Positions 7,853 through 57,619 of a stretch of DNA of 64,000 nucleotides are shown here, in pieces (position 1 is the stretch's first letter; the number at the start of each line of letters is the position of its first letter). The translations under genes were made by a program, and so were the position numbers. The DNA comes from Sphingopyxis lindanitolerans (GTDB lineage Bacteria; Pseudomonadota; Alphaproteobacteria; Sphingomonadales; Sphingomonadaceae): positions 1,429,251-1,493,250 of the forward strand of contig NZ_CM009578.1 of assembly GCF_002993885.1 (NCBI RefSeq). The letters run 5' to 3'. The notes under the pieces were generated by a model, which did no database searches, was not told where the DNA came from, and saw only the letters and a list, made by a program, of their open reading frames with translations.

Positions 7853-7934
7853 GTTCCCCCGCGAACGCGGGGGCCCATCACCGGCCCTTGCGGAATGACG
7901 CGGTAGAAGATGGACCCCCGCCTTCGCGGGGGAG
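7853..7934. repeat. Paired inverted palindromic repeat (REPIN-like, family A)
   Basis: Two GC-rich palindromes face each other: CCCCCGCGAACGCGGGGG with a CCATCACC tail (left), and the reverse form GATGGACCCCCGCCTTCGCGGGGG (right). It lies between the convergent aroG and M28 peptidase genes and may also act as a bidirectional terminator. Confidence 0.8.
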
Positions 7935-16062: not shown

Positions 16063-16143
16063 TCGTCATTCCCGCGAAAGCGGGAACCCAGAGCGTGCGT
16101 CGGCTGACCCCACGCTGGGTTCCCGCTTTCGCGGGAATGACGA
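16063..16143. repeat. Paired inverted palindromic repeat (family A, GGGAACCCAG subtype)
   Basis: TCGTCATTCCCGCGAAAGCG... at 16063-16097 is mirrored by the arm at 16111-16143, ending CGCGGGAATGACGA. The subtype has CGGGAACCCAG after the stem, matching the palindromes that flank the GIY-YIG gene at 23630. Confidence 0.85.
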
Positions 16144-23601: not shown

Positions 23602-23629
23602 GTTCCTGCGAAAGCAGGAACCCAGGGTG
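23602..23629. repeat. Palindromic repeat left of GIY-YIG gene 1
   Basis: GTTCCTGC-GAAA-GCAGGAAC is a perfect 8-bp-stem hairpin followed by CCAGGGTG. The unit is repeated in the same orientation at 23938-23965 on the other side of the GIY-YIG gene, differing mainly in the loop. Confidence 0.85.
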
Positions 23630-23923
23630 TCAAAGCGATAGCCTGTCGAACAAATCCAGCCACTGTGGATTATCCCGCTCGATCAGTTCAACCTTCCACG
23701 CCCGTTTCCATTTCTTCATCTGCAGTTCGCGCTGACGCGCCTGCTGGATGTCATCAAACGCTTCATACCAGACCAGTAGCGTACAACCATATTTCTTGCT
23801 GAAGCTATCGATCACTTCGTTGCGATGCTGCCAAACCCGTTTCAGAAGATCGCTGGTCACACCCAGATACGTCGTCCCGTTCCGGCGACTGGCCATCAAA
23901 TAAAGATAGCCGGGTTTGTTCAC
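23630..23923 (-). CDS. Small GIY-YIG nuclease-domain protein (copy 1)
   Basis: The 97-residue protein is a stand-alone GIY-YIG domain of the COG2827/YhbQ type. Elements visible: the GIY and YIG strands as YLYLM and TTYLG, the catalytic Arg in LLKRVWQHR, the metal-binding Glu in RQRELQMKKWKR and a C-terminal NPQWLDL. GC is well below that of lpdA and odhB, and the codon mix differs, suggesting foreign origin. It is inserted between odhB and lpdA and bracketed by direct copies of one palindrome. About half its residues match copy 2 at 28284. Cellular role is unknown for the family. Confidence 0.88.
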   Translation of the reverse strand: MNKPGYLYLMASRRNGTTYLGVTSDLLKRVWQHRNEVIDSFSKKYGCTLLVWYEAFDDIQQARQRELQMKKWKRAWKVELIERDNPQWLDLFDRLSL

Positions 23924-23937
23924 CTCAATCTCCCGCG

Positions 23938-24015
23938 TTCCTGCGGGAGCAGGAACCCAGGGTTCGGTTGCACCAACATTGCATTCCTACCCTAGGCTCC
24001 TGCGTTCGCAGGAGC
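23938..24015. repeat. Palindromic repeats right of GIY-YIG gene 1
   Basis: GTTCCTGC-GGGA-GCAGGAAC (23938-23957) followed by CCAGGGTT repeats the 23602 unit in the same orientation. A further perfect palindrome, CTCCTGCG-TT-CGCAGGAG, is at 23998-24015, right before the end of odhB. Confidence 0.85.
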
Positions 24016-28180: not shown

Positions 28181-28218
28181 TGTCTCAACTCGCTCGCATT
28201 ATAAAATACACCGCTCGT

Positions 28219-28247
28219 GCCCCTGCGAAGGCAGGGGCCCATCATCC
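28219..28247. repeat. Palindromic repeat left of GIY-YIG gene 2
   Basis: GCCCCTGC-GAAG-GCAGGGGC (28219-28238) followed by CCATCATCC. The same unit occurs in inverted orientation at 28588-28616, so the GIY-YIG gene lies between facing copies. Confidence 0.85.
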
Positions 28248-28283
28248 AAAGGTCGGATAAGGTGCCGACCGGGCCGATCTTCA

Positions 28284-28574
28284 TTATCCCTGAATCTCGA
28301 CCCACAAATCTCGCCAATCGGGATTCGTTTCCTCGACCATCCGTACCTTCCAACTTCGCTTCCATCGCTTGATTTGCAGCTCACGCCTGCGCGCTTCCTG
28401 CAAATCCTCATGCGCTTCAAACCAAACCAGAAGCACGCAGCCATGGGTCTTCGTAAAACCCTCGACCAACATCTCGCGGTGCTGATAAACGCGCTGCACC
28501 AACTTCGATGTCGACCCGGTATAGATGGCGCCGTTCTTGCGGTTCGCCATGATATAGACTGCGCCGCTCTTCAT
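28284..28574 (-). CDS. Small GIY-YIG nuclease-domain protein (copy 2)
   Basis: The 96-residue stand-alone GIY-YIG domain shows AVYIM and AIYTG as the two strands, a catalytic Arg in LVQRVYQHR, the Glu in RRRELQIKRWKR and NPDWRDL at the end. It is only about half identical to copy 1, so the two are old relatives rather than a recent duplication. It sits between sucD and odhA, has lower GC than both, and is bracketed by inverted copies of a family A palindrome. Role unknown; nuclease activity is assumed from conserved residues. Confidence 0.88.
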   Translation of the reverse strand: MKSGAVYIMANRKNGAIYTGSTSKLVQRVYQHREMLVEGFTKTHGCVLLVWFEAHEDLQEARRRELQIKRWKRSWKVRMVEETNPDWRDLWVEIQG

Positions 28575-28587
28575 TCATCGCCCGGTC

Positions 28588-28616
28588 GGGTGATGGGCCC
28601 CTGCCTTCGCAGGGGC
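28588..28616. repeat. Palindromic repeat right of GIY-YIG gene 2
   Basis: GGGTGATGG then GCCCCTGC-CTTC-GCAGGGGC. It is the reverse complement of the 28219 unit, with one change in the tail. Confidence 0.85.
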
Positions 28617-28641
28617 GCGAGAAAGAGCGATGTCGCTAAGA

Positions 28642-29551: not shown

Positions 29552-29650
29552 GCGCCCCTGCGGAGGTAGGGGCCCATCTCCAGACATTTGGTTCACCCGC
29601 CGCCCCATTTCGCGAGCGCGGGTGATGGACCCCCGCCTTCGCGGGGGCAC
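29552..29650. repeat. Paired inverted palindromic repeat (family A) between mdh and sucD
   Basis: CGCCCCTGCGGAGGTAGGGG with tail CCCATCTCC faces the reverse arm GATGGACCCCCGCCTTCGCG. Same structure as the pair around GIY-YIG copy 2 but without a gene inside. Confidence 0.8.
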
Positions 29651-36592: not shown

Positions 36593-36679
36593 CGTCATTG
36601 CGAGCGCAGCGAAGCAATCTCCAGCTATCATCGCGCCGCATCGATAGCTGGAGATTGCTTCGCTGCGCTCGCAATGACG
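36593..36679. repeat. Long palindromic intergenic repeat (family B), copy 2
   Basis: Starts CGTCATTGCGAGCGCAGCGA and mirrors itself to end in CGCTGCGCTCGCAATGACG, with AATCTCCAGCTATC in each arm. The stem is almost perfect over about 38 bp per arm. It lies between two convergent genes. Confidence 0.88.
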
Positions 36680-40680: not shown

Positions 40681-40729
40681 CCCCCTGTTGGAATGCCGGA
40701 AGCGACCAAAAAGCCCACCTCTCCACCAT

Positions 40730-40834
40730 CGTCACCCTGAACTTGTTTCAGGGTCCATGGCCCGCCGTCTCCTTCGGCGCGGCGCTGGACGTGAGCGCAG
40801 GCCATGGATGCTGAAACAAGTTCAGCATGACGAC
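40730..40834. repeat. Paired inverted palindromic repeat (family D)
   Basis: CGTCACCCTGAACTTGTTTC... at 40730-40762 is mirrored by 40800-40834, and each arm is itself palindromic (CCCTGAAC/TTTCAGGG; GCTGAAAC/GTTCAGC). It lies in the 273-bp gap between the phosphotransferase and rpsI, which otherwise holds only the rpsI terminator. Confidence 0.82.
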
Positions 40835-50221: not shown

Positions 50222-50327
50222 GTGCTCCCCCGCGTAGGCGGGGGTCCATCTCCCATCTTATCGATTGCAGCCCGTGGCGCGTGAGAACGATAGCGTAGGA
50301 GATGGACCCCCGCCTTCGCGGGGGAAC
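50222..50327. repeat. Paired inverted palindromic repeat (family A)
   Basis: GCTCCCCCGCGTAGGCGGGGG with tail TCCATCTCCC faces the reverse arm GGAGATGGACCCCCGCCTTC. The pair lies between two convergent genes. It is one of the cleanest copies in the window. Confidence 0.85.
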
Positions 50328-57059: not shown

Positions 57060-57560
57060 ATGCACCGTACCGACCTGATCGCGATCGGCGAACTCGCGGC
57101 GCGCACCGGCGTTGCGGTGTCGGCGATCCGTTTCTACGAAGCCAGGGGATTGCTCGCGGCGCTACGCTCGGGCGGCGGGCAGCGGCGCTTTCTGCGCGCC
57201 GACATCCGCCGCGTCTCGTTCATCCTGATTGCGCAGCAGATGGGGCTGAGCCTCGAGGAGATCGCGGCGGAACTTGCCGGACTGCCCGCGCAGCGCACGC
57301 CCAACGCCGCCGACTGGACGCGGATCAGCACCGGATTGCGGGCGCGGATCGATGCGCGGATCGAGGGGCTGACACGGACGCGCGAACTGCTCGACAATTG
57401 TATCGGCTGCGGCTGTCTGTCCTTGAAGAAATGCGCGCTCTACAACCGCGAGGACAAGGCGGCGCAGCGCGGCGCGGGACCGCGCTATGTGCTGGGCGAC
57501 CGGGCGGGGGAGATTGCGGAGGTGACACTGCATAATCCACCTTCGTCATCCCGGGCCTGA
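57060..57560 (+). CDS. soxR: Redox-sensitive MerR-family regulator SoxR
   Basis: The 166-residue protein has a MerR helix-turn-helix (IGELAARTGVAVSAIRFYEA, about 9-28), a long dimerisation helix and the 2Fe-2S cysteine set C114, C117, C119 and C125 (CIGCGCLSLKKC). Oxidation by redox-cycling compounds makes it an activator. No soxS is present, as is normal outside enterics. The last seven codons and the stop lie inside a family D-like palindromic repeat (57543-57619), so the native C-terminus was probably replaced by repeat sequence. Confidence 0.94.
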   Translation: MHRTDLIAIGELAARTGVAVSAIRFYEARGLLAALRSGGGQRRFLRADIRRVSFILIAQQMGLSLEEIAAELAGLPAQRTPNAADWTRISTGLRARIDARIEGLTRTRELLDNCIGCGCLSLKKCALYNREDKAAQRGAGPRYVLGDRAGEIAEVTLHNPPSSSRA

Positions 57561-57619
57561 CCCGGGATCCGCCTATTCCTTCAAGACAGGCGGGCCCCGG
57601 GTCAAGCTCGGGGTGACGA
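57543..57619. repeat. Paired inverted palindromic repeat that enters soxR
   Basis: TCGTCATCCCGGGCCTGACC... (57543-57573) faces the arm 57589-57619 ending GGTCAAGCTCGGGGTGACGA. Each arm contains a CCCGGG-type palindrome. The TGA within CCTGACC is used as the soxR stop codon. Confidence 0.8.

Follow-up and report, generated by a model that had tools for sequence, protein, structure and literature searches.

The small GIY-YIG nuclease gene between sucD and odhA in a Sphingopyxis genome and the two facing REP palindromes that frame it form one unit, which we read as mobile or formerly mobile, with a nuclease that most likely cuts its cognate REP and so starts the spread of the repeats. We put the probability of this reading at about 0.7. 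Units of this build recur in several phyla. Since the gene lies inside repeat pairs that are also found empty, and since the pairing is recurrent in many bacteria, the GIY-YIG enzyme is a candidate for the spreader of these repeats.

The GIY-YIG gene and its framing palindromes

The window, a stretch of 64,000 nt, corresponds to positions 1429251-1493250 of a 4.37-Mb genome (G000:C1). Sphingopyxis records make up most of the closest named relatives of the gene, and 'the genus' below means Sphingopyxis. The original prediction had described a second GIY-YIG gene in it, framed by facing palindromes with CCATC tails in the gap between sucD and odhA (gene names as given there). The coordinates (Table 1) and a Pfam match at E 4.1e-16 confirmed this arrangement, and the gene is codirectional with both neighbours. 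Both hairpins have perfect 8-bp stems, 4-nt loops and CCATC tails that face the gene. DNA folding gave -10.8 and -11.7 kcal/mol, each value being equalled by 1 of 200 shuffles. Readings of the hairpins as tRNA-type, CRISPR-type or plain-terminator structures were set aside by reasoning, as they predict neither the orientation, nor the tails, nor the matching at both ends.

Stem, loop, tail and inverted-dimer arrangement of the pair (8 bp, 4 nt, CCATC, facing) are those of the CGTC REP superfamily. The bases before the two stems are CGT and CGC, where that superfamily has a CGTC or TGTC tag. The window pair is thus a tag variant of the CGTC REP, in which stem, loop and tail are kept.

Table 1. 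Coordinates of the GIY-YIG genes and REP palindromes in the window.
Feature	Position	Strand	Sequence, type or basis
GIY-YIG nuclease gene, 96 aa	28284..28574	-	ORF, Pfam match, alignment, AlphaFold model, dN/dS
REP palindrome upstream of gene	28597..28616		GCCCCTGC-CTTC-GCAGGGGC; tail GATGG 28592-28596 toward gene
REP palindrome downstream of gene	28219..28238		GCCCCTGC-GAAG-GCAGGGGC; tail CCATC 28239-28243 toward gene
Whole unit, gene and facing REPs, ~402 bp	28217..28618	-	outer ends inferred by likeness to gene-less pairs
GIY-YIG gene 1, 97 aa, sister unit	23630..23923	-	GTTCCTGC/GCTCCTGC palindromes at 23602-23621, 23937-23956, 23996-24015
Gene-less facing REP pair upstream of sucD	29555..29647		mixed stems
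Gene-less facing REP pair	50227..50324		CCCCCGC subtype
Gene-less facing REP pair	7856..7932		CCCCCGC subtype

The protein

GIY-YIG (PF01541) was the sole Pfam domain reported for the window protein, at 59.5 bits against a curated cut-off of 22.6. Residues Y7, Y18, R28, H32, E65 and N84, which we take to be the catalytic residues of the GIY-YIG superfamily, were invariant in an alignment of 31 rows. Both the domain score and this conserved set of two Tyr, Arg, His, Glu and Asn place the protein in the superfamily. The AlphaFold model had a pLDDT of 95.4. The best match in the PDB was 1zg2 (UPF0213; sequence E 0.0017), which was also the only fold match below 0.001 (E 2.3e-4). It was followed at E 0.03-0.2 by 1ywl and by entries of Slx1, a structure-selective GIY-YIG nuclease. 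Median dN/dS was 0.13 in seven window orthologues and 0.07 in each of two further groups of four and five sequences. These values reveal purifying selection and indicate that protein function is maintained, also in units that move.

Inverted repeats flanking GIY-YIG genes

For each copy, the upstream flank was compared with the reverse complement of the downstream flank, both measured from the domain ends, and a score of at least 32 was taken as a pass. Other ORFs in the same stretches, unmatched for length, served as controls. In the genus, 86 of the 93 distinct GIY-YIG copies were flanked, against 3 of 449 of these length-unmatched ORFs. The count had first been 87/94 with one gene entered twice (L052, L069), and the control figure belongs to that 94-copy run. 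At a score of at least 40, 78 copies and none of the other ORFs passed. Eighteen of the 19 genus sites passed in most of their copies, and the nineteenth (L101) has exact REP unit ends. The original prediction was to fail if GIY-YIG genes showed no bias toward sites with flanking palindromes, and the opposite was observed.

Flanked copies also occurred in the class beyond this genus (36/66, against 0/48 other ORFs) and among named copies with under 80% identity to the window protein (49/71, against 0/53); 30 and 22 copies, respectively, had no pair at the threshold. When flanks were swapped between copies, passes were less frequent: 98/559 combinations in the genus, 10/393 in the class and 64/420 in the named set. 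Where two copies have the same palindrome type, a few such passes are to be expected. Remote profile matches were flanked in 11/17 cases at 40-58 bits and in 1/14 below 40 bits, a split of this remote subfamily that was chosen after the scores had been seen, against 0/20 other ORFs. The near lack of flanked copies below 40 bits indicates that a GIY-YIG domain alone is insufficient for flanking.

An earlier test for matching repeats at both ends detected 23 of 63 GIY-YIG copies and none of 376 other ORFs. A strict test for perfect-stem hairpins detected 22 of the 63 on either side and 12 on both sides (other ORFs: 34 and 1 of 376); fewer copies pass it, as mismatches are frequent at the outermost stem pair. 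An ORF-based first pass gave 82/96 genus, 29/68 class, 9/31 remote and 47/79 named copies as flanked. Because flanks taken from ORFs gave too low a count wherever the called start codon lay upstream of the REP, the domain ends were used instead.

The genus sample comprised 60 genomes, 53 of them with a match, and 212 matches; from the matches listed, 97 ORF records in 94 loci were analysed (L036 repeats L004, and L069 repeats L052). Copies beyond the first per locus in the close and distant class sets, domains of fewer than 60 model positions and flanks shorter than 80 nt were dropped. The flank test kept 66/68 class, 31/32 remote and 71/72 named loci, and L323 gave no ORF. In the flank test from the domain ends, the tag counts and the Mantel tests, the named set leaves out the window's own clade (L269-L276). 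Some species may be present in both the class and the named set.

Palindrome types and their fit to the protein

By eye, the arms in other genera commonly consist of CGTCA or TGTCA, stem, loop, stem and a CCA-type tail toward the gene. Examples were seen in Rhodanobacter fulvus, Azonexus, a Neisseria MAG, and two loci each of Nitrospira and Sphingomonas. GTCA/TGAC was present in an arm of 52/82 flanked copies in the genus, 23/29 at class level and 32/39 in the named set. The tag pointed outward or both ways in 41/82, 18/29 and 24/39 of these sets, and inward only in 11/82, 5/29 and 8/39, the last including Neisseria wadsworthii. The remaining 30/82, 6/29 and 7/39 had a matched pair without the tag.

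Repeat type follows protein similarity. In Mantel tests of protein against arm similarity, r was 0.73 in the genus (one copy per site, n=18), 0.27 in the class (n=29) and 0.57 in the named set (n=39), with p 0.0002-0.0004 in all three. The genus signal was carried by ten pairs above 80% protein identity. Part of the Mantel signal may reflect joint descent of a gene and its ends and not recognition.

A remote second GIY-YIG subfamily, found in Alphaproteobacteria, has a different class of flanking palindrome, YTCATSS. This motif occurred in 8/9 of its flanked copies, and GTCA/TGAC in 1/9.

Filled and empty forms of the pair

The gene had been predicted to be the filled form of a repeat pair that is otherwise empty, and filled and empty forms were compared. 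The search for sucD covered 40 genus genomes, and 30 sucD-odhA loci were read (29 relatives and the window genome). In 24 of the 30 the gap was gene-free and 85-97 bp long; in the other six it measured 438-542 bp, with a palindrome-framed GIY-YIG gene in it. The sucD-odhA site thus has both occupied and empty alleles, as expected of a homing gene. The window palindrome type was present in five of the six filled gaps (in one of them as ACCCCTGC). In L026, the sixth, the gap is filled by another GIY-YIG unit, which has CCCCCGC-type pairs, and one palindrome of the GCCCCTGC type is left over at the odhA side. The old palindrome at the edge of this other unit indicates that the site was used twice.

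Gene-less GCCCCTGC pairs were found in the window genome (G000:C1:3231883-3231983 and 4140573-4140673) and in six further genomes. Their ends are those of the gene unit (stem, CCCATC-type tail, mirror), so that gene-carrying and gene-less pairs end alike, which supports the prediction. On account of these shared ends, the gene unit can be described as a REP pair with a longer, gene-carrying middle. The full exact pair was present in 15 of 20 stretches fetched, which were picked among the matches listed and so give no rate; stem to stem, it measured 94-96 bp in four of the 15 and 100-102 bp in eleven. With two lengths and a variable middle, the gene-less GCCCCTGC pairs were unlike ordinary deletion derivatives.

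At other genus sites, the relatives were empty, had a REP pair of a different type without a gene (three loci) or held an oppositely directed unit (one locus).

Mobility of the units

Units of the CCCCGGG palindrome type are plainly mobile. A search by the ends of CCCCGGG-CTTGA-CCCGGGG units found 13 complete copies with the gene, which come from 11 genomes and lie at 11 places. Eight were 394-396 bp long (78-99% identical) and five 384-386 bp (77-84%), with 53-59% identity between the two groups. At two places, units of two genomes stood in opposite directions (L106/L353 and L355/L356). In the six units of this type first studied, the stop codon TGA lay within the right-hand ATGACG/GTGACG tag.

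Genome G024 carries two copies (L123 and L359; 394 and 395 bp) at 484 kb and 1611 kb of contig C1, which differ at 3 positions (99% identical). Near-identical partial copies were present at contig ends in G026 (256/262 positions). Three gene-less REP pairs in G024 share the right flank of L123 (44, 45 and 66 bp; 82-91% identity) and start exactly after GACG; gene-carrying and gene-less forms stand in the same repeated context in this genome. Terminal inverted repeats common to both forms, as in transposons and their MITEs, are thus present. No target-site duplication was visible in the joined flanks of the mobile units, and the empty sites were too diverged for measurement.

The two G024 copies also have 17 nt in common on the left, outside the CGTC end, with no match on the right. 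An extra part of the unit and a preferred target are candidate readings of this stretch.

Most genus copies look vertically inherited, the 97 ORF records falling into 19 sites, and so does the window's own copy. Since the window's clade occupies one site only, movement is seen in sister units and not in the window copy.

Gene presence and REP numbers

One CGTC REP pattern was counted in 190 alphaproteobacterial genomes, and the gene was scored as present at a profile E of at most 1e-25. At least five CGTC REPs occurred in 19/54 genomes with the gene and 7/136 without it (odds 10), that is, in 11/27 against 3/39 genomes of at least 3.5 Mb and 8/27 against 4/97 smaller ones, and in 15/54 against 7/136 (p 4e-5) after subtraction of two REPs per gene copy, all of these figures being uncorrected for kinship. 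The reversed pattern gave 0 matches in every one of the 190 genomes. Seven gene-free genomes of the class held 5 to 74 CGTC REPs, among them G164 with 74 and G234 with 68.

In the genus, the seven carriers held 4-22 GCCCCTGC palindromes in addition to those of the gene, and the 53 others a median of 1 (p 0.0004, uncorrected for kinship). At least five were present in 16 of the 53 genus genomes without the clade-8 gene. CCCCGGG-CTTGA palindromes were more numerous in 12 carriers (p 0.0005), and at least three also occurred in 9/48 others. GYTCCTGC palindromes, the type of gene 1, were scarcely amplified: any were found in 8/9 carriers and 8/51 others, with 0-3 dispersed per carrier genome. Genus carriers were judged from the fetched copies and from REP pairs among the matches listed.

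Proposed mechanism and alternatives

In the reading that we prefer, the gene unit would be the gene-carrying counterpart of the scattered gene-less REP pairs. Its single-domain GIY-YIG nuclease would recognise the stem, the tag and the CCA-type tail of the cognate REP, probably when this is folded into a hairpin or cruciform, and would nick or cut the REP. The cut would set off a copying process, by strand transfer or break repair, in which REP pairs of either form reach further intergenic sites. We infer both the cutting of the REP and its role as the driver of spread. A wider reading is, in our judgement, slightly better than an even bet: CGTC REPs in Proteobacteria and beyond may be the gene-less form of unrecognised mobile elements of ~400 bp, whose sole protein, a single-domain GIY-YIG nuclease, would recognise its own REP hairpins and spread both forms, an invention resembling RAYT/REPIN and independent of it, with an unrelated enzyme. 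The second subfamily would do likewise with the second palindrome class.

In the main alternative, the gene is a selfish endonuclease of the homing type, which would have colonised REP pairs that arose by other means; it would cut the empty pair and be copied into it by repair, with no role in the spread of gene-less pairs. In favour of this, the GIY-YIG fold is well known from homing nucleases, the site occurs both empty and filled, and most clades sit at one fixed site. The refilling of the sucD-odhA gap by a different GIY-YIG unit, with the old palindrome left behind, would also suit such a parasite. Homing alone, however, would not lead one to expect REP numbers that track gene presence, or a single palindrome type whose 13 units, with exact REP ends, are spread over 11 places. 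Both observations weigh against a purely parasitic gene, and we consider this explanation unlikely.

It is less probable still that the gene is cargo in REP pairs moved by a RAYT, a DDE transposase or host recombination. The many REPs in gene-free genomes such as G164 and G234 would fit a passenger. Cargo, however, would not be one protein family within such pairs in Sphingopyxis, Sphingomonas, Rhodanobacter, Azonexus, Neisseria and Nitrospira. The search for a mover was one for the RAYT domain, Y1_Tnp, which was matched in 11 of the 60 genus genomes and had no match in the window genome; on these grounds a RAYT was set aside as the mover in Sphingopyxis. According to PMC3733652, links between CGTC REPs and transposase genes are few and fortuitous. 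That small intergenic genes merely end up beside abundant REPs (108 matches to one core pattern in the genome, and 94 of 376 other ORFs with a hairpin no more than 100 bp from one end) is hardly credible in view of the matching repeats at both ends in 23/63 copies against 0/376 and 86/93 against 3/449, with controls unmatched for length, and of the near lack of flanking in GIY-YIG proteins below 40 bits (1/14).

Relation to known systems

A comparison with RAYT genes and REPINs had been drawn in the original prediction, and it holds for the architecture. As in the RAYT (TnpA-REP)/REPIN 'REPtron', a nuclease gene has facing REPs at both ends, many pairs are gene-less, and REP type goes with the gene clade. 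RAYT genes are mostly inherited vertically, a further likeness to the GIY-YIG genes described here. The comparison does not hold for the protein or the tag. The window enzyme is a 96-aa GIY-YIG protein, whereas RAYTs are HUH/Y1 transposases, and the GTAG tag of RAYT systems is replaced by CGTC in most relatives outside the genus and by CGT/CGC in the window pair. Some GIY-YIG units, unlike RAYTs, occur in many clean copies, and the confinement of the window clade to one site further limits the comparison. RAYT-type transposases are the proposed movers of GTAG REPs. If the reading preferred here is true, a partnership of REP and nuclease arose at least twice, with unrelated enzymes.

CGTC REPs (CGTC-1 to -4) are described in Di Nocera 2013 (PMC3733652) as having 8-9 bp stems, 4-5 nt loops and a CCA-type tail, as forming inverted dimers and as being abundant in alphaproteobacteria. 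Stems, loops, tail and dimers are like the flanks studied here. According to the same text these repeats 'apparently lack a dedicated transposase', whereas the pairs studied here enclose a GIY-YIG gene; the string 'GIY' has 0 occurrences in that text. The mover of these widespread alphaproteobacterial repeats is left open there, and the present finding names a candidate enzyme. A literature search, with most subscription papers and all bioRxiv preprints outside its range, yielded, among the papers listed, none that links GIY-YIG genes with REPs; PMC9465073, in the part available, merely lists both GIY-YIG and REP-related genes.

The catalytic domain is the same as in GIY-YIG homing endonucleases and in small free-standing proteins (UPF0213, 1zg2). 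What sets the window gene apart is that its protein leaves no room for a separate DNA-binding domain, that there is no intron and that its own palindromes bound it. The coexistence of gene-less and gene-carrying forms with common terminal inverted repeats resembles a MITE and its autonomous parent. Unlike in a MITE, each end is itself a hairpin, the gene-less middle is variable, the parent is only ~400 bp long and no target-site duplication was seen. If mobile as proposed, the unit would add a very small gene-carrying element to the known set. The finding also suggests a pairing of protein and repeat, and it points to genomes with near-identical copies in which movement might be caught.

Other GIY-YIG genes and palindromes in the genome

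The genome has five GIY-YIG matches, namely four small genes and a 666-aa frame that was taken to be UvrC. All four small genes adjoin palindromes, each of its own type. One of them (L001) has a pair on one side only and gave no pass in the two-sided test for flanking repeats. The neighbours of gene 1 look by eye like lpdA and odhB. The two GIY-YIG genes of the window lie ~4.4 kb apart on the same strand, in gaps of what by eye is an apparent TCA-cycle gene cluster.

The tailed-palindrome pattern, with up to 3 mismatches, had 14 matches in the window against 0.62 expected. Genome-wide, CCCCYGCNNNCGCRGGGG gave 57 forward and 51 reverse matches, a count in which one palindromic place may score on both strands, against 0 for the reversed pattern. 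The gene-less pairs that had been placed at 29552-29650, 50222-50327 and 7853-7934 are real and have the architecture and tail in common with the gene unit. Their stem is of the CCCCCGC subtype (mixed in the first pair) and not that of the window gene.

Two large gene-less inverted pairs were also observed in the window, at 36593-36679 with 37-bp arms that are 100% complementary (CGTCATTGCGAGCGCAGCGAAGCAATCTCCAGCTATC), and at 40729-40833, a CGTC-tagged pair with CTGAACTTGTTTCAG stems. Gene-less CGTC-tagged REP pairs of the classical superfamily type lie at 16063-16143 and 57543-57619, with TTCCCGC and TCCCGGG stems, respectively.
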